DNA of 64,000 bases, taken from positions 62,001 to 126,000 of the forward strand of contig JACOEM010000001.1 in the NCBI GenBank assembly GCA_024998565.1, read 5' to 3'. Source of the DNA: Nitrospira sp. GTDB lineage: Bacteria; Nitrospirota; Nitrospiria; Nitrospirales; Nitrospiraceae. Positions 26,219-32,550 of the stretch are shown here, piece by piece. The notes under the pieces were generated by a model that was not told the origin of the DNA, did not search any database, and worked only from the letters and a program-made list of their open reading frames with translations. A program made the translations under genes and the position numbers. The number at the start of each line of letters is the position of its first letter. Position 1 is the stretch's first letter.

Positions 26219-26263
26219 TGGTGCGCCCGGAGGGACTTGAACCCCCAATCCTCGGATCCGAAG
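26219..26263 (-). repeat. attL-like 3' fragment of tRNA-Arg
   Basis: 45 nt that match the 3' end of the tRNA-Arg at 32474-32518, including the CCA end and T arm, with a single difference (AAT for AAC). The 5' half of the tRNA is missing. Same orientation as the intact gene, so the two form a direct repeat bounding 6.2 kb, the usual trace of integrase-driven insertion into a tRNA 3' end. Confidence 0.85.
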
Positions 26264-26674
26264 GCGGACAAACTACATTAGAGACAGACAGCGATCAGGG
26301 AGGACAGATGGACATGTTCTCTTTATAGAACAAGGGCTTTTGTGTCAGACCATGCGGATGAAGGACGACTGAGGCATACCTGTGATCGTGGCCAAAACCG
26401 GGACCGAACCGTGACCAAAACCGTGACCAGATTCCGCCATTATAGTACGAGCGCGCTCCCTGATCTTTGTCCGTGTGAGACGCTGTAGACAGACAGTAGG
26501 CCAGATGCTAGCAATGCAAATTTACAGCTCGACCGAGGTCCTCAGAGGGGGCAGGGATGACTGCGTTCGCTCCCCCCTGTTGGGACTGCCCAAGATTCCC
26601 GATCGAGAACAAAAGGAGAGGAACCGGTAGCCAGTGAACAGCCACCCACAAGGAGATTTTCGTTGAGATGCCAC
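26264..26674. other. Left end of the island, noncoding
   Basis: No intact gene. It holds a 25-bp direct repeat copy (26406-26430) and a long imperfect inverted repeat between about 26530 and 26611 (GAGGGGG and CCCCCCT cores) that could fold downstream of the protease operon. Confidence 0.4.
26406..26430 (+). repeat. 25-bp direct repeat, left copy (integrase tail)
   Basis: Identical to 32405-32429. In one frame both copies read TVTKTVT, a tail commonly seen at the C-terminus of tRNA-targeting tyrosine integrases, so each is probably the remnant 3' end of an integrase gene. Confidence 0.6.
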
Positions 26675-27598
26675 TTATTCAAGAGGCATCTGCGCCGGCC
26701 CCTGCATCAGTACCTGTTGCGCAACAGACACCGATGCGACGCCTTTATGGTTCTCGATGATCTTAAATGCCCCCGTCCCAGCAAGCGTCAACATGCAGGC
26801 ATGATGAACGGACAGCACAGCATCCTGAAGACGCTGGTCGTCTTCCAGCATGAGTACTTTGAGCCCCATATCTCTACAACGGTTTGGAGATAGATGCCTC
26901 GCATGCGATTTCGTGAGTGCGTGATCCCCTAGTTCTTTAACGATGCGCTCTGATTTCGCGTTTCTGTCGCTGTCACTACTAAGCATTCCCGTGACAAGCC
27001 ACTCTCTCGCCATCTCGTTTGACCATTGGATAGCCTTCTCGCATTCCCCAATGAGGGTCGGCGAGTACTTAGCGATGATAGGTTGCCAAACAAACGCTCT
27101 GCTTTGGTCGGCTTTAATTTCGGCGTGCGCACGGTTGAATTCCTCGACAACTCCATGCGCTGCTATTCCGCCAAATTGAGGATCGATTGGTCCCAGACTC
27201 GAGTGCTTGCCCATAACAATTTCCTTGCACGCACAGGCGATCATTGTACCTGCGGACATCGCAAGCTCAGGCACGATGGCTCGAATATCGGAAGCAAACA
27301 TCGACCGGAGATATACGACAAGAGACTCGGTTGCTGCAGTCTCGCCGCCCGGCGTATGGAGAATGAGATCGAGTCCCTTAGTTCTGTCGAGTCCGTGAAT
27401 CACGGTCATGAAGCCATTCTTGTCGGCATCACTAACCTGGGTCCCGAGGAGCTTTGGCTTTTGAAGCCAGCCAGAATAGTAAATGATGACGTTTCTACGG
27501 GTTACCTTGGAAAGGGTCTTGAGCCTCTCGCGCCGAATAACGTCGAAAGTTGATCCACGTGCTTTGATCTCTTGAAGGAGGCTATGCCAGGTGGGCAT
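26675..27598 (-). CDS. SDH-type Clp-fold serine protease
   Basis: A 307-residue protein of the serine dehydrogenase proteinase (SDH) type, relatives of ClpP/SppA. LILHTPGGE (about residues 80-88) is the oxyanion strand, PELAMSAGTM holds the likely nucleophile Ser, and HSSLGPIDPQ follows, with a His nearby. No signal peptide or membrane segment, so a cytoplasmic protease. Start ATG 27598 has GGAGGAG seven bases upstream and overlaps the preceding 63-residue gene by 17 nt. Last gene of the island operon. Confidence 0.8.
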   Translation of the reverse strand: MPTWHSLLQEIKARGSTFDVIRRERLKTLSKVTRRNVIIYYSGWLQKPKLLGTQVSDADKNGFMTVIHGLDRTKGLDLILHTPGGETAATESLVVYLRSMFASDIRAIVPELAMSAGTMIACACKEIVMGKHSSLGPIDPQFGGIAAHGVVEEFNRAHAEIKADQSRAFVWQPIIAKYSPTLIGECEKAIQWSNEMAREWLVTGMLSSDSDRNAKSERIVKELGDHALTKSHARHLSPNRCRDMGLKVLMLEDDQRLQDAVLSVHHACMLTLAGTGAFKIIENHKGVASVSVAQQVLMQGPAQMPLE

Positions 27599-27773
27599 CG
27601 GTCGTCTCCTCCAAGGGAATGGTCGTCGTTTCAATGCGGATAAAAACCTGCGGAGAGGGCGGCGGGTCTGCGGAGAAACCCATTTCTGATGCTCCTGTAC
27701 GTCCCCAGGTCTCTTTTGTCATACCCATCTCACAGAAGGCTTTCTCGATCTCCTCAATTGTGCGGGTTTTCAT
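27582..27773 (-). CDS. 63-residue protein preceding the SDH protease
   Basis: Starts ATG 27773 with an excellent GGAGGTG site. It begins MKTRTIEEIEKAFCEMGMTK, a likely amphipathic helix, and ends with a beta-like stretch VFIRIETTTIPLEE. The 3' end overlaps the protease start by 17 nt. No family recognised. Strong coupling suggests a partner, adaptor or substrate of the protease, an inference. Confidence 0.65.
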   Translation of the reverse strand: MKTRTIEEIEKAFCEMGMTKETWGRTGASEMGFSADPPPSPQVFIRIETTTIPLEETTDAHLA

Positions 27774-27988
27774 CTCGTCACCTCCGACGTACCCAATTTT
27801 CCCAGCTTATCAGTGCGGGCCTGCATAACACCATCGTCATGCTGCAGAGCATAAAATGATTGTTGGGCTTCAGCAACAATTTGATCGTATTCTCCGAAAA
27901 ATACTGAGACTCCAGGTGAGAAAGACCCTAGAGGGTATCCTGGAGAACAGCGATCAGAGACTCGAAGGCTACACCTTTCACCAAACAA
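27770..27988 (-). CDS. 72-residue hypothetical protein in island operon
   Basis: Lies between the nuclease gene and the 63-residue gene and overlaps both (11 nt and 4 nt). The only suitable start is TTG 27988 with AGGGAA very close to it, so the start is uncertain. The second half is helical (QIVAEAQQSFYALQHDDG). No family recognised. The tight overlaps argue that it is read as part of the operon. Confidence 0.45.
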   Translation of the reverse strand: MFGERCSLRVSDRCSPGYPLGSFSPGVSVFFGEYDQIVAEAQQSFYALQHDDGVMQARTDKLGKLGTSEVTR

Positions 27989-28901
27989 TTCCCTGCATAT
28001 AGTCCGGCAGTAGAAATGTATGCGTTCTAAGAAAATCTATTAGTTTCAATGCATCAATACGCTCAACCTTGTAGTTGGTTGAATGTAAATTTTTAGGGTT
28101 GAGGTCGAACAAAAAAAATTTGTCAACCTCCGTAGGCACGTCGACTGATGCAAGATGAGTTTCCCCGCTCTTTACCTGTACATACGCACGCTTGCCTTCC
28201 GAGTTCCGAAGTACAAATTCTGTAAGTGGGGTTGAGCGTTTGGCTGTACTTGGGACGAGGTACCATCCCATTTCAGCTTGCAGGTACAACGCGACCAAAT
28301 CCTCTAAGTCGTCGTGCCCTATGGCAGAGAGTGACACTTTTGCCGATTTGAAAGCAGAATTTTCAAATGCCTCGCCGGTCAACTTCTCCCAAATGGAAAG
28401 GCTCATATGAATGACAGCATCACGTTCCCTCTGAATTTGAGAAATGGCGGAGCCACGCCCAGCATAGGCATTCTTGACAGGACCAGGAACTGTGTCCGCA
28501 GGCCCAACCTTTTTCCATCGGCATTTTCTCACCTGATAAAGGTCAAACTCTTTAAAATAGCCTGAATTCTGATATCTCCATGGGCCTTCTACTTTGCCCA
28601 ACCAGTAGATATCTCCCTTAGCACGGCACCAAACAAAATCGCCTGGTTGCATTATCACGGCCAAAGCCCTGTGCGCAGAACGGGCTGCGGGACCATTTTT
28701 GGGATCCGTTGTAAGTGCCTCTCCGTAAACCTTAGGATCCTGTAAATTGTCAGATAGTGAGTCGCAGTGCCAGCCAATACCAACCCAAGCATTGACGAAA
28801 CAAAATTCTCTTGCTCGATCGACTTTATGATGGTCCTTGTCGAAATCCTCCCGGCCTGATTTCAAAGGCATTTTCCAGACTCTTCTGTCGTCTACTTCCA
28901 T
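27978..28901 (-). CDS. EVE-like/PD-(D/E)XK nuclease fusion
   Basis: 307 residues in two parts. The first (about 25-145) looks like a PUA/EVE-type base reader: NAWVGIGWHCDSL, then QPGDFVWCRAKGDIYWLGKVEGPW written as a beta barrel with aromatic pocket. The second (about 175-265) resembles a PD-(D/E)XK nuclease: HDDLEDLVALYLQ, TEFVLRN and AYVQVKSGE, giving D/E-x(n)-E...QVK. This is the layout of modification-dependent (type IV-like) restriction enzymes. Start ATG 28901 has GGAG six bases upstream. Fold calls are by eye and need profile searches. Confidence 0.6.
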   Translation of the reverse strand: MEVDDRRVWKMPLKSGREDFDKDHHKVDRAREFCFVNAWVGIGWHCDSLSDNLQDPKVYGEALTTDPKNGPAARSAHRALAVIMQPGDFVWCRAKGDIYWLGKVEGPWRYQNSGYFKEFDLYQVRKCRWKKVGPADTVPGPVKNAYAGRGSAISQIQRERDAVIHMSLSIWEKLTGEAFENSAFKSAKVSLSAIGHDDLEDLVALYLQAEMGWYLVPSTAKRSTPLTEFVLRNSEGKRAYVQVKSGETHLASVDVPTEVDKFFLFDLNPKNLHSTNYKVERIDALKLIDFLRTHTFLLPDYMQGIVW

Positions 28902-28955
28902 ACTAATCTCCAAAACATAGCTAACATTTCGCAGCTTACCCCTAACCGACTACGA

Positions 28956-29924
28956 CTAGAGCCATCTGAGCGGAATGCCGGAACGACTTATTTTTGGAGC
29001 AATGTCTGGATTTAAAGAAAGGAGAAGCAGTTTGACTGACTCTTGATTCAGATCCGCATTTATCGTTGGTCCAATCATTAATTCAACTACAGGAAAAGCA
29101 TAACCATACGTATCTTCGAGAGATAACGCGATCGCCTTGTCGAGCTGAACGGTATAGTACGGGATTATGTTTCCGTCGTAACTCCGAAATTTTGGGAGAT
29201 CATTACCCCTATGAGATGTCGGCGAAGCACTGGCAAAGTGAACTAAGCGCCATTCACGCTCCTCTTTAAAATCTGGATGTTTGAAAGAGAACATCAGCTC
29301 ACCTATGGTTGAACTGAAGGCTTGGCACAGAGCTGGAAGGAATGAACTTTCGGTCTCTTTGAGATTCAATAGTTTATTTTCATCATTATCGAGAACGCGC
29401 AGAAACTCTTTTATGACAGAATCAATCACCGTCACCTGCTCGGATTCACCATACATAACTCTACGCAAAACACAGTGCCTACTCAGAAGACGCAATAGAT
29501 GAAAAAAATCAAACCCAATAGCATAGCCACCACCGCGACCTCTGTATGCTCGCCATTGACTAAGAAGATTCCCTTCCTCGCAGAAGGAAGCCGAAAAGAC
29601 AGAGTACCCAGCGTGAAAAGGATCAAAACTCGTCCCAATCCGTCGAATAAAAGTCTTCTGAATGTCGCTCAACCCTGGAGCCTCCAGCTGCAGGGCCAGC
29701 CTCTTCTCTACGAGTGCTTTAGAATATTGCAATTCCGATAGATCGTTCATGTACCGCAGATCGGTCAGCCAAATACTTTTGCTACTAAGTATTCCGATTA
29801 GTCCATCTGCCGAAGTGTAATGATAGAGCACATGCGGCACCTGCTCATGATGCCGCGACCATGCTCCCAAAACATTTTGGATTAGGTCATCTAACAGCTT
29901 CTGTTCATTTTCAGTTAGCTGCAT
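28956..29924 (-). CDS. DUF2971 family protein
   Basis: A 322-residue protein with the DUF2971 hallmarks: LYHYTSADGLIGIL and IWLTDLRYMNDLSE near the N-terminus, SFCEEGNLLSQWRAYRG with GGGYAIGFD in the middle, and EEREWRLVHF later. Members occur often in defence and phage-related regions and resemble ADP-ribosyltransferase-like folds; the activity is unproven. Start ATG 29924 overlaps the upstream gene by 14 nt and the next gene follows after 54 nt. AT-rich codon use compared with the chromosome. Confidence 0.8.
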   Translation of the reverse strand: MQLTENEQKLLDDLIQNVLGAWSRHHEQVPHVLYHYTSADGLIGILSSKSIWLTDLRYMNDLSELQYSKALVEKRLALQLEAPGLSDIQKTFIRRIGTSFDPFHAGYSVFSASFCEEGNLLSQWRAYRGRGGGYAIGFDFFHLLRLLSRHCVLRRVMYGESEQVTVIDSVIKEFLRVLDNDENKLLNLKETESSFLPALCQAFSSTIGELMFSFKHPDFKEEREWRLVHFASASPTSHRGNDLPKFRSYDGNIIPYYTVQLDKAIALSLEDTYGYAFPVVELMIGPTINADLNQESVKLLLLSLNPDIAPKISRSGIPLRWL

Positions 29925-30483
29925 TGTCTGCCGAGTGCATAATTTCAACGCCTATACGATAATTTTCTATAGCCATACCAAGTAGATACAGCGCACCATT
30001 GTCGAGGCCAATTGCACCTGCGCTGTTACCTGGCTGCGTAGTTAGGGTAAGCATTGATATGTTTGGCGCCTTATTATCGTTCGCCACGCCAAACTTGCTT
30101 CTGTCCGGATGCAGTATGATCGGATATCCAGACTCAGAGAAGAGAAGGCAGGAAACAGAAAGTTCATATTCACGACCGCCTGGTGTGCACTTCAAATCGA
30201 ACCAAATCCTACCGCTTTCCTTATGAACCACTGATGTTCTATTTCTACCTCCCAACGCCACATAGTCTGCAGCATTGTGAAGCGTGACCGCATTGTTGGT
30301 CACACAGGCAATAGGTGATCGGTCCTGCTGGAATAATTCCAGACTTATGCCAAGATGGCCCGTTTCTATATTACGAGCGACGAAAATTATCTGTTTACCA
30401 TTGCACACAATAGGTTGAGCCACATTTCGATACAAGATACCGCCAATCAAGGCCTCATATTGTGCTGCTGGTATCCAAGACAT
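29911..30483 (-). CDS. Hypothetical beta-rich protein, first gene of island operon
   Basis: A 190-residue protein without a recognised family. It is predicted mostly beta, with strands such as IVCNGKQIIFVARNIE and GRIWFDLKCTPGG, and a Gly/Ala-rich loop TQPGNSAGAIGLDNGALYLLG near the end; this GNSAG-like loop recalls trypsin-fold proteases (GNSGG), but the His and Asp partners are not obvious. No signal peptide. It heads the operon and overlaps the DUF2971 gene. Role unknown. Confidence 0.6.
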   Translation of the reverse strand: MSWIPAAQYEALIGGILYRNVAQPIVCNGKQIIFVARNIETGHLGISLELFQQDRSPIACVTNNAVTLHNAADYVALGGRNRTSVVHKESGRIWFDLKCTPGGREYELSVSCLLFSESGYPIILHPDRSKFGVANDNKAPNISMLTLTTQPGNSAGAIGLDNGALYLLGMAIENYRIGVEIMHSADNAAN

Positions 30484-31037
30484 GATGAGCGCCGTCTTCT
30501 AAGGTCGGGACGCAATAATTAAAAGGGAGAAGTTAGTCTAGAATCCTGCTGATCCTGGAAGCCAGACTATAGCGCCCTTAAACATTAATTTCGAGGCGTC
30601 TTACAGCGGAATTTCGTTAATTTAAAGACCAGTCCGCTCTTGATCGATCGGCGAACTTAAGCGAAGTGTCGTCCTACTTTGACCATATAGATCAAGTGAA
30701 GCGGGGGCTGCGCCCCCGATCCCCCCGGCCGTCCGGTCCATTGGTCCGGAACGGCCGGGCGGCCTCGTTGGGCGGAGTCTTTGCGTGACCAATCTCACCA
30801 TGGTTTCAGTATCCCTGTTCTCTTCTCTGTCTGTGTAACCAACAATCACCCCGGACGGCCGCCAAGCTGACGCATCGCCGCCTGGTACAAGGAAGGACCA
30901 TTCTTTCCTCTCACCCGTGACGGACGTGGCCGGGTGAGAGGGCGCGACTGATCTGATCGATTATCGTGAGGCGAGACCGCTCGCACTCCCTCACGTGAGA
31001 GCGAAAGCTAGAGGCGAACACCGAAGAAAGTGATTGC
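30484..31037. other. Hairpin-rich noncoding stretch in island
   Basis: No convincing gene. Four inverted repeats are packed in 300 bp: CGGGGGC/GCCCCCG (30702-30718), CCGGCCGTCCGG/CCGGAACGGCCGG (30725-30758), CCTCTCACCCG/CGGGTGAGAGG (30907-30941) and CGTGAGG/CCTCACG near 30967-30999. The sequence is much more GC-rich than the operon beside it. None is followed by a U-run typical of a terminator. Confidence 0.5.
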
Positions 31038-31081
31038 TGGTGAGTCCGGAGAGATTTAAACCCTCAGCCCCGGATTCGAAG
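31038..31081 (-). repeat. Second, degenerate tRNA 3'-like fragment
   Basis: Aligns with the 3' end of the tRNA-Arg (about 36 of 45 positions by eye, one gap), including the TGG complement of CCA and GGATTCGAAG. It lacks a 5' half. It lies between the operon and the toxin-antitoxin genes and probably marks an older or separate integration. Confidence 0.55.
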
Positions 31082-31261
31082 GGGAACACACTGCTATTGA
31101 AGACTGAACATGAGTAGGAGTGAGGCAGCCATGCTCGCGTGACAAATCCAGAGCTTCACAATGAACCGATGCACTCAGTGGCGGGCGAGAGAGCTCTCTA
31201 CGTAACGGTGTCCAACACCGAGGCCAACACGTTCTCACACATGTGAGACGACCTGACACAA

Positions 31262-31576
31262 TTACTCGAACAGGTCGGCATGTGAGCCGGTACGCTCCAG
31301 GTACAGGAATTCATCATCGGTTCTGTAAATCAGGAGCCAGTCGGGAGCAACGTGGCATTCCCGGTGATGTTTCCAATTGCCGGAGAGGGCATGGTCTCTA
31401 TTTCTGACGGGCAAAACCTTTCGAAATTGTAGGAGGTCAATGATGTCCTCGAGGTCGTCGATATCCTGCCCTCGTTTTTTGGCTAGGAGTCTGTCCGAGG
31501 CATCCTTCGTTGCGAGGCGAAGGAGCGGCTGGTAGATGCGAGGCTGCAGGCGCGAAACAACCGGAGGCGTATTCAC
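31262..31576 (-). CDS. YafQ-type mRNA interferase toxin, altered N-terminus
   Basis: About 104 residues. The YafQ core is intact: LLAKKRGQDIDDLEDIIDLL, then DHALSGNWKHHRECHVAPDW, LLIYRTDD and RTGSHADLF, with His residues of the RelE/YafQ ribonuclease fold. The only in-frame start, GTG 31576, lies inside the palindromic repeat at 31520-31652, so the first 17 or so residues are repeat-derived. The antitoxin gene ends 143 nt upstream instead of overlapping. Expression or activity may be impaired. Confidence 0.75.
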   Translation of the reverse strand: MNTPPVVSRLQPRIYQPLLRLATKDASDRLLAKKRGQDIDDLEDIIDLLQFRKVLPVRNRDHALSGNWKHHRECHVAPDWLLIYRTDDEFLYLERTGSHADLFE

Positions 31577-31719: not shown

Positions 31720-31998
31720 TTATACGCCCGTATGGTTTCTGAGGGCGCGGAAGGTCTTAAAGGAAGGGAGTTTCTCCGGCTTGTTCGTTTCGTCCAGGGC
31801 GGCAATGGTCGTGGCGTTTGGAACGGTGACAGGGAATGGAATTCCCTGATGGAGTTCGACCTGAGCATAGAACAGGCGGATAGCTTCGGCTTCAGTGAGG
31901 CCCAGGCGATCGAAAATCTTCACGGCTCTCTTTTTGAGGCCTCCATCGATACGGGTATTAATCCGGTGTGACTTTGATATGTGTGCAGCCTTTCTCAT
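31720..31998 (-). CDS. RelB/DinJ-type antitoxin
   Basis: A 92-residue protein: ribbon-helix-helix part RINTRIDGGLKKRAVKIFDR followed by LGLTEAEAIRLFYAQVELHQGIPFPV, the typical DinJ/RelB signature ending in FPV, then a toxin-wrapping tail. It pairs with the YafQ-like toxin downstream. ATG 31998 is chosen by similarity to DinJ starts; the frame extends further upstream across a palindrome that is probably its operator. No strong ribosome site is visible. Confidence 0.8.
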   Translation of the reverse strand: MRKAAHISKSHRINTRIDGGLKKRAVKIFDRLGLTEAEAIRLFYAQVELHQGIPFPVTVPNATTIAALDETNKPEKLPSFKTFRALRNHTGV

Positions 31999-32007
31999 GC
32001 GTCCGAA

Positions 32008-32027
32008 TGTACGCCATTTGTCGTACA
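32008..32027. promoter_or_regulatory. Palindromic operator candidate of the antitoxin gene
   Basis: TGTACG-8 nt-CGTACA located 10 nt upstream of the antitoxin ATG. RelB/DinJ antitoxins bind inverted repeats in their own promoter, so autoregulation is likely. Confidence 0.5.
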
Positions 32028-32105
32028 AGTCAATAATGATAGCCGGGAGATCCGCCGCTGGCACCGCGACATTGAGACGACGCTTCGGTATGCCCACCTT
32101 GCCTC

Positions 32106-32363
32106 AGCCCGCATTATTCATGACGGTTCGTCGCGAAATCGCCGAGTCACGTTGGGAGACCGGCGCGCGGAGCCGGGAGGACCCAAGGCGTACTCGTGCA
32201 GTACGTCGAGGGGCGCACGGCGCGATGAATACAGAGCGCCACGTCTGTGCGCGCCGCCGAGTTGGTGAGGCGGCCGGACCGGAGGGGCGAGCCCGCCGGC
32301 CGAAGGCCCGTCGCAGCAGTGAATCGGCGATTGCAGCAGAAGTGCTCATGAATAATGCGGGCT
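32106..32363. mobile_element. MITE-like element, 258 bp, family copy B
   Basis: Perfect 18-bp terminal inverted repeats, AGCCCGCATTATTCATGA at 32106-32123 and its complement at 32346-32363. The GC-rich interior lacks a transposase and contains GGCGTACTCGTGCAGTACG followed by TCGAGG, the same centre as copy A at 22561-22739. It has interrupted the integrase remnant. Confidence 0.8.
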
Positions 32364-32404
32364 ACCACATCTTCGAGACGCAGTGAATCGAGGGAGTCTG
32401 GCTG

Positions 32405-32429
32405 GAACCGTGACCAAAACCGTGACCAG
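32405..32429 (+). repeat. 25-bp direct repeat, right copy
   Basis: Identical to 26406-26430; here it forms the preserved tail of the integrase remnant, 45 nt from the tRNA 3' end. Confidence 0.65.
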
Positions 32430-32473: not shown

Positions 32474-32550
32474 TGGTGCGCCCGGAGGGACTTGAACCCC
32501 CAACCCTCGGATCCGAAGTCCGATGCTCTATCCAATTGAGCTACGGGCGC
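32474..32550 (-). tRNA. tRNA-Arg(TCG)
   Basis: A complete 77-nt tRNA with encoded CCA. The acceptor stem is GCGCCCG/CGGGCGC; the anticodon stem-loop is TCGGA-CTTCGGA-TCCGA, which gives anticodon TCG (Arg, codon CGA); the T arm contains GGTTCAAGTCC. Its 3' end is the island attachment site, and the sequence left of it is the island. Confidence 0.95.

Follow-up and report, generated by a model that had tools for sequence, protein, structure and literature searches.

A 64,000-nucleotide stretch of DNA from Nitrospira sp. (contig JACOEM010000001.1 of assembly GCA_024998565.1, positions 62,001 to 126,000; hereafter the window) holds, on its minus strand at 26675-30483, six open reading frames (ORFs) that lie in the order A, B, C, D, E, F from 30483 downward and that were originally predicted to form one operon encoding one undescribed defence system. 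Our comparisons show instead that the six genes make up three distinct modules, A-B, C and (D)E-F, pieced together, and not one machine: sister genomes have the same integration site and the same conserved 126-bp hairpin core with other cargo, and A-B and E-F are kept as pairs. The explanation that best accounts for the locus as a whole, and that we consider probable, is that A-F are the mosaic cargo of a decayed element, with the mechanisms proposed below for A-B, C and E-F. An integrative element would have entered tRNA-Arg(tcg) and since lost its integrase and rep-like genes, and we infer from context that each module of its cargo serves either defence or upkeep of the element.

The six ORFs themselves were confirmed, with starts at ATG 30483 (A), ATG 29924 (B), ATG 28901 (C), TTG 27988 (D), ATG 27773 (E) and ATG 27598 (F). 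Their description as overlapping or abutting holds for A/B, C/D, D/E and E/F, which overlap by 14, 11, 4 and 17 nt respectively, but not for B and C, which are separated by 54 nt. The GC content steps within the run, from 0.45-0.475 in A-D to 0.52-0.54 in E-F.

The full A-F run was found in no second genome. Synteny and genome searches agree that the genes do not co-occur as a set, the very outcome that the original prediction had named as refuting it; A-B and E-F do recur elsewhere as pairs. Ten loci from related genomes, picked for lying at the same tRNA-Arg(tcg) site, share the core and the attachment (att) end with the window and carry other cargo, the window's cargo interval (26441-30661) having no DNA match in them except for C in one locus, L008 of genome G015. 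The left flank is common to all ten, displaced by ~1.4 kb in L212 and 4.4 kb in L216, and the right flank to nine, the tenth, L008, lying at a contig end. In L008, C is 84% identical and stands without A, B, D, E or F; it is the only cargo gene within the block of DNA homology, the ends of which are module junctions, and homology to the window resumes at the att region and the left flank. Upstream of C in that locus (L008:1001-2616), A-B are replaced by three ORFs without a Pfam family, one of which weakly matches PDC-M32A (E 1.1e-5). Searches with tblastn (E 1e-3) for A, B, D, E and F in the 39 other loci of the element family described below returned nothing. When C was searched for again in 18 genomes, the only matches were in G015 and G003, both put in because they were known to carry it; the 16 genomes chosen for A, B or F gave none. 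G231 and G306, the two other genomes with A-B, do not figure among the 86 genomes in which the phylum search found F. In G359 a good F and a distant A domain lie on different contigs.

All of A-F lie behind one copy of the core, whose predicted fold as single-stranded DNA is more stable than that of shuffled sequences (z -3.66; 30670-30790, minus strand). The core has six matches in its own genome, where the repeat upstream of A is found at five other places, and it is present in 31 of 100 related genomes: its own, 24 of the 28 other members of the genus and 6 of 71 outside it. Some genomes have at least six copies; at most eight candidates were scored per genome, so that these are minimum numbers. 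An alignment of seven copies shows a nearly invariant block. Intact elements are laid out as tRNA, integrase, rep-like gene, core, cargo and att, and the family, whose cargo is exchangeable, includes the window (30640-30942) and loci L188, L189, L190, L191 and L197-L230. Across 40 element loci (34 stronger core matches outside the window's own genome, four from that genome, L008 and the window), a tyrosine integrase was found in 33, some of them partial, the rep-like gene in 37 and a second copy of the tRNA end in 20. The targets are tRNA-Arg(tcg), tRNA-Arg(tct), tRNA-Gln and tRNA-Cys; copies beside tRNA-Asn have no tyrosine-integrase match, and L189, the one inspected, has a serine recombinase.

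The integrase of L188 belongs to PF00589 (E 1.4e-30), and the same element has a helix-turn-helix ORF that, from reading by eye, we take to be AlpA-like. A protein of 237 residues (L188:6281-6991, L190:5798-6508) is 85-98% conserved in five aligned copies and has no match in Pfam, PHROGs, plasmids or phages; we call it merely rep-like because rolling-circle Rep motifs, sought by eye, were not convincing. Titles and the opening lines of abstracts in the Nitrospira literature on integrative elements, islands and defence revealed no report about such elements.

The window copy of the element is decayed, retaining scraps of the integrase and having lost the rep-like gene; a similarly decayed arrangement with different cargo occurs in genome G023 (L200). 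Several features that had been read from the sequence nonetheless stand. The island is AT-richer than its surroundings (GC 0.478, against 0.596 and 0.607 in the flanks) and is bounded by tRNA-Arg(tcg) and a copy of the 50 bp at its 3' end. Its derivation from an integrase-bearing element is supported as well, although merely C-terminal scraps survive, the best matching the integrases of intact elements at 80% over 20 residues (E 2e-4) and another at 61% over 18 residues (E 0.006). A third, degenerate copy of the tRNA 3' end is perhaps the scar of a tandem element, left with a deletion between two elements.

Sister elements also bear on whether the cargo is defensive. The 19 elements that could be delimited contain 81 cargo ORFs, ten of which, mostly large ones and not a random sample, were chosen for comparison with PADLOC. 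Seven of the ten, in seven different elements, match at E<=1e-8: Upx (2.6e-151), a defence reverse transcriptase (5.9e-198), SIR2/PDC-S65 (7.2e-54), PDC-S06 (7.5e-63), PDC-M41A (3.1e-24), an AriA/OLD-type ATPase (7.7e-20) and PDC-S02 (1.5e-10). Two of the remaining three match at 4e-7 to 4e-6, and one has no match. At least 7 of the 19 elements therefore carry a PADLOC-recognised gene, a lower bound because only ten of the 81 ORFs were chosen. By comparison, at most 3 of 100 flanking control ORFs (106 less six that lay inside elements; lengths not matched to the cargo) match PADLOC, to three families, all of RtcR type, with one member each. The cargo of one sister element at tRNA-Gln (L190:7546-11847) reads as transport and metabolic genes, with a GDSL-type enzyme by Pfam, instead of defence genes. 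The predicted antiviral setting is thus borne out as far as the carrier is concerned, a mobile island in which sister cargo is often PADLOC-recognised and C is itself a PADLOC candidate, but the proposed partnership of a base-reading nuclease with a neighbouring protease joins two separate modules, C and E-F. Taken together, these surroundings speak for an antiviral role of A-B and of C but do not prove it.

The A-B module is the part that may be undescribed, as an ADP-ribosylating toxin and its partner. B belongs to DUF2971, as had been named from the sequence (PF11185, 49.6 bits against a cut-off of 22), whereas A has no family in Pfam, PADLOC, NCBIfam or PHROGs. In the phylum sample A was matched in 10 of 395 genomes and at full length in three, including its own, and in all three B directly follows; the B proteins of G231 and G306 are 55-56% identical to that of the window, and the pair occurs in three families of the phylum. 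A search of genome contigs with A returned one match, the G306 locus, and none of 22 loci fetched with short flanks around distant DUF2971 matches contains A. The neighbours of A-B in G231 are a methyltransferase, a BamHI-type endonuclease and an integrase remnant that scores below threshold; in G306 the pair lies between genes read as lipoamide-metabolism genes, with no element noticed and none searched for. DUF2971 matches occur on 132 plasmid records; B homologues in phages were not found at E 1e-5. Small proteins with the N-terminal beta domain of A were also seen (L036, L037, L038 and L030-L033), with no DUF2971 in the stretches fetched.

Structural models suggest how such a pair might work. 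The AlphaFold2 model of B (mean predicted local distance difference test, pLDDT, 83.5, from an alignment of 23 sequences) has DarT as its best neighbour in VIA-align (Z 7.5, a value in the range that the program calls common; 147 residues, 4.0 A) and resembles tRNA 2'-phosphotransferase (Z 6.4, 110 residues, 3.1 A); entries for DarT or KptA/Tpt1 alone fill its top 15 places (Z 7.5-4.7), and the next is unrelated (Z 4.0). B is therefore predicted, with moderate scores, to have an ADP-ribosyltransferase (ART) fold. Residues that include Y36 in an H-Y-T segment, R125, E222 and E224 are invariant in 23 of 23 DUF2971 members and would suit an NAD+-using ART, their catalytic role being suggested by conservation. 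Matches of B to TAL-effector repeats in the PDB sequence search covered stretches of about 30 residues and were taken as spurious. The corresponding model of A (pLDDT 84.2) is all-beta, and a PDB sequence search with A gave nothing below E 0.04; being all-beta and having no convincing structural neighbour, A is not a macrodomain. An ART-like B with a non-macrodomain A leads us to propose a toxin/partner pair, in which B would use NAD+ to ADP-ribosylate some target, nucleic acid or protein, A would bind B and either hold it in check or aim it, and release of B by phage infection or by loss of A would stop the phage or the host.

A bolder reading joins two claims. One is that this genus harbours an undescribed family of small integrative elements targeting tRNAs, in which the integrase, AlpA-like gene, rep-like gene and 126-bp hairpin core form a constant chassis and the contents of a defence slot can be exchanged. 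The other is that A-B, in one such element, are a new kind of module defending by ADP-ribosylation, in which an all-beta protein, in place of a macrodomain, guards or aims a DarT-like DUF2971 effector. We hold the two together tentatively, judging it more probable that at least one falls short. Another possibility is that A-B act simply as toxin and antitoxin, an addiction pair keeping the element stable, and have no antiviral role. The ART-like fold of B, its overlapping upstream partner and the recurrence of toxin-antitoxin genes such as RelB-YafQ in the same elements would fit this, but such a pair has no obvious use in G306, where A-B sit between presumed lipoamide-metabolism genes, and defence genes often turn up among those sister cargo proteins that were examined; we regard it as rather doubtful. 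That B shares the ART-like fold and acts as a binding protein, not an enzyme, seems unlikely: its Foldseek score is weak, its Z middling, and the histidine of the H-Y-T segment is a tyrosine in several DUF2971 members, yet the tyrosine, arginine and two glutamates persist across 23 diverse members and in Pfam the HYT segment weakly matches Tox-ART-HYD1 (E 0.19).

Gene C is better placed among known families. It matches PADLOC PDC-S02 along its full length (PDLC04816, 194.9 bits, profile positions 2-288 of 299). The core of PD-(D/E)XK nucleases follows the pattern E...E/D...(E/Q)xK, and in the C-terminal E...E...QxK motif of C, residues E200, E228, Q242 and K244 are invariant in 9 of 9 homologues. 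The earlier naming of C as an EVE-like/PD-(D/E)XK fusion is accordingly upheld in its nuclease residues, but the EVE-like half is unproven: the N-terminus has no EVE match in Pfam, the whole protein has no Pfam family at a meaningful score, PD-(D/E)XK families included, and a PDB sequence search gave nothing below E 0.04. The N-terminal domain would recognise nucleic acid, perhaps modified, which the C-terminal QxK nuclease would then cut. C was found in 9 of 390 genomes, three of these marginal. Its homologues in viral contigs adjoin a gene read as lysozyme, a homologue on a plasmid lies beside type I restriction and SIR2 genes, and a divergent PDC-S02 protein is cargo of another tRNA-Arg(tcg) element, L197. 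An integron-cassette origin was considered for the sharp boundaries of C, and no attC-like site was seen by eye in the window sequence. PDC-S02 is a phage-defence candidate identified through guilt-by-embedding; on a panel of 100 P. aeruginosa strains it is predicted in 39, of which 59.0% are resistant (PMC10855318).

F is a Clp-fold serine protease of the SDH type, in line with its original name, by its match to PF01972 (E 3.9e-20, 72.5 bits, cut-off 31.3) and to phrog_11747 (E 2.1e-95, nearly full length); its score against the NCBIfam equivalog Clp_like_SDH (NF047768) is 83.9 bits, below the curated cut-off of 250, and a PDB sequence search gave weak matches to ClpP and NfeD protease. S127, H93 and P95-G97 (numbered from TTG 27634) are invariant in 11 of 11 homologues, and because the serine and the glycine-rich segment are kept, F is likely active. 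Viral contigs often carry homologues (139 were confirmed and the top 80 kept), which also occur in 7 phage and 35 plasmid records, four of the latter covering 80% of F; matches in 86 of 395 genomes of the phylum sample include many remote Clp relatives. An upstream ORF of 55-80 residues ending within 90 nt of the F start is present in 73 of 92 F loci (98 less six skipped for a contig edge or lack of a start) and before 37 of 188 long ORFs other than F from representative loci, in a comparison that picked start codons differently for F and for the control ORFs. At the level of clusters at 80% identity the count is 41 of 53, and this ORF is fast-changing. From its position, the small protein E would regulate the protease F.

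Of the two small proteins originally listed, E is upheld by a 56% homologue in G030 (L069), the closest E-F pair found, in which the F match stops at residue 79 and is a fragment. D is doubtful as a gene because it has a TTG start and no homologue in the 99 genomes searched besides its own (1 of 100), and because the stretch of DNA shared with L008 stops within it (27959). Neither D nor E has a family in the Pfam, PADLOC, NCBIfam and PHROG searches. On another reading the modules no longer have a function and are relics of phages or elements. This would suit the decay of the element, the orphan status of D and the abundance of E-F type pairs in viral contigs; we think it improbable, since A, B, C, E and F are uninterrupted ORFs and A, B, C and F keep the columns conserved among their homologues.

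Several points weigh against the explanation we prefer, that of a mosaic cargo with defensive modules. A PADLOC profile match does not amount to a complete defence system, and the 107 families returned by a scan of all 81 cargo ORFs are an inflated count because two proteins alone match about 60 families each; Pfam finds in the same ORFs five RelB, two Na/H exchangers and one each of FBPase, CheB methylesterase, TauE (sulfite exporter), HSP20 and a transposase-type protein. The A-B pair is rare, being present in 3 of the 395 genomes sampled from the phylum. Searches with A matched nothing in plasmids or phages, and in viral contigs a pattern-based scan for A yielded 24 matches, none confirmed. 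The fold of A is unrecognised, with nothing at E<=0.001 in Foldseek against PDB and BFVD and a best VIA-align Z of 2.7, and Foldseek likewise gave no match to B at that threshold (best DarT, E 1.7e-2, probability 0.93), next to a DarT Z of a common order. The small ORF as defined is missing from 19 of the 92 F loci, besides the uneven choice of start codons in that comparison. Genomes G094, G097 and G208 combine a distant C with remote partial Clp-type matches, on other contigs. Even so, a single, newly assembled six-gene defence system, one operon with parts co-opted from other modules, is very improbable, for although its genes share one strand, short spacings, translational overlaps and one core, the set was not found in a second genome, C occurs at the same site without the other five, GC steps between D and E, and D is an orphan.

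Between the tRNA and the core, outside A-F, the window has a RelB-YafQ pair, which is also present at tRNA-Arg(tcg) in five sister elements, twice in L200. A perfect 18-bp inverted repeat (32106-32123 and 32346-32363, 222 bp apart), perhaps a small insertion, lies in the zone of integrase remnants. An Rfam scan of the island found the tRNA alone and no other RNA family. The features are collected in Table 1.

Table 1. Features of the tRNA-Arg(tcg) island in the window.
Feature	Position	Strand	Basis or remark
tRNA-Arg(tcg)	32474-32550	-	proximal end and integration target
Integrase C-terminus scraps beside tRNA	32062-32427	+	tblastn with integrases of intact elements
RelB antitoxin	31720-32097	-	PF04221, E 5.4e-13; 82-88% copies in 5 sister loci
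YafQ toxin	31262-31576	-	PF15738, E 3.2e-29; 78-83% copies in 5 sister loci
Third, degenerate tRNA 3'-end copy	31038-31087	-	62% identity
126-bp hairpin core	30665-30790	.	conserved in element family; between rep-like gene and cargo in intact elements
Gene A, 190 aa, all-beta, partner of B	29911-30483	-	ORF list; homologues adjoining B in G231 and G306
Gene B, DUF2971, 322 aa from ATG 29924	28956-29924	-	PF11185, E 1e-12
Gene C, PADLOC PDC-S02, 307 aa from ATG 28901	27978-28901	-	PDLC04816, E 5.2e-58
DNA homology block with L008 (genome G015)	27959-28914	.	gene C alone of cargo; ends are module junctions
ORF D, 72 aa, TTG start, orphan, spans recombination junction	27770-27988	-	doubtful gene
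Gene E, 63 aa, precedes F	27582-27773	-	56% homologue in L069
Gene F, Clp-fold serine protease, 307 aa from ATG 27598	26675-27598	-	PF01972, phrog_11747
Distal att, tRNA-Arg 3'-end copy	26219-26268	-	50 bp, 94% identical to tRNA 3' end

The locus illustrates that overlapping island genes on the same strand need not form one system. What remains exceeds an ordinary island: a genus-wide carrier with a slot that often holds defence genes, and a possibly undescribed ART-type pair. A conserved core with fixed ends makes the island an address, so that genomes of the genus can be asked what lies behind the core, and that cargo is a direct route to listing candidate defence genes. With at least 7 of 19 elements carrying a PADLOC-recognised gene, unrecognised cargo such as A-B becomes a ranked list for testing, and if DUF2971 is an ADP-ribosyltransferase, a family present on 132 plasmid records gains a testable activity.

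The elements resemble the PICMI phage satellites (PMC10803314): both are small and integrative, with an integrase (found here in intact relatives) and a defence slot behind a replication-type gene, and L188 adds an AlpA-like gene identified by eye only. They differ in targeting tRNA sites, not fis, in having the 237-residue rep-like gene, without a Pfam or PHROG family, where PICMI has a DUF3987/DUF5906 primase, and in their conserved hairpin core. F resembles the SDH-type phage proteases of phrog_11747 in nearly its full length and in the habit of a small upstream ORF, but here it sits in an integrative element, where phage structural genes beside it were neither noticed nor looked for. C differs in nothing essential from PDC-S02 and is a member of that family; in L008, too, it occurs without A, B, D, E or F. 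DarT is a toxin that acts against phages and is restrained by a macrodomain (PMC5179494, PMC9503650); in DarG this domain consists of a beta sheet flanked by helices (PMC5179494). A-B recall DarTG as a two-gene pair of effector and partner, with DarT the best structural neighbour of B's predicted ART fold. They depart from it in that B is a DUF2971 protein, with no row for DUF4433, the DarT family, up to E 1 in Pfam, and in that A is all-beta and without a Pfam family, whereas DarG is a macrodomain; the pair that we propose would thus be DarTG-like in its working, but not DarTG.

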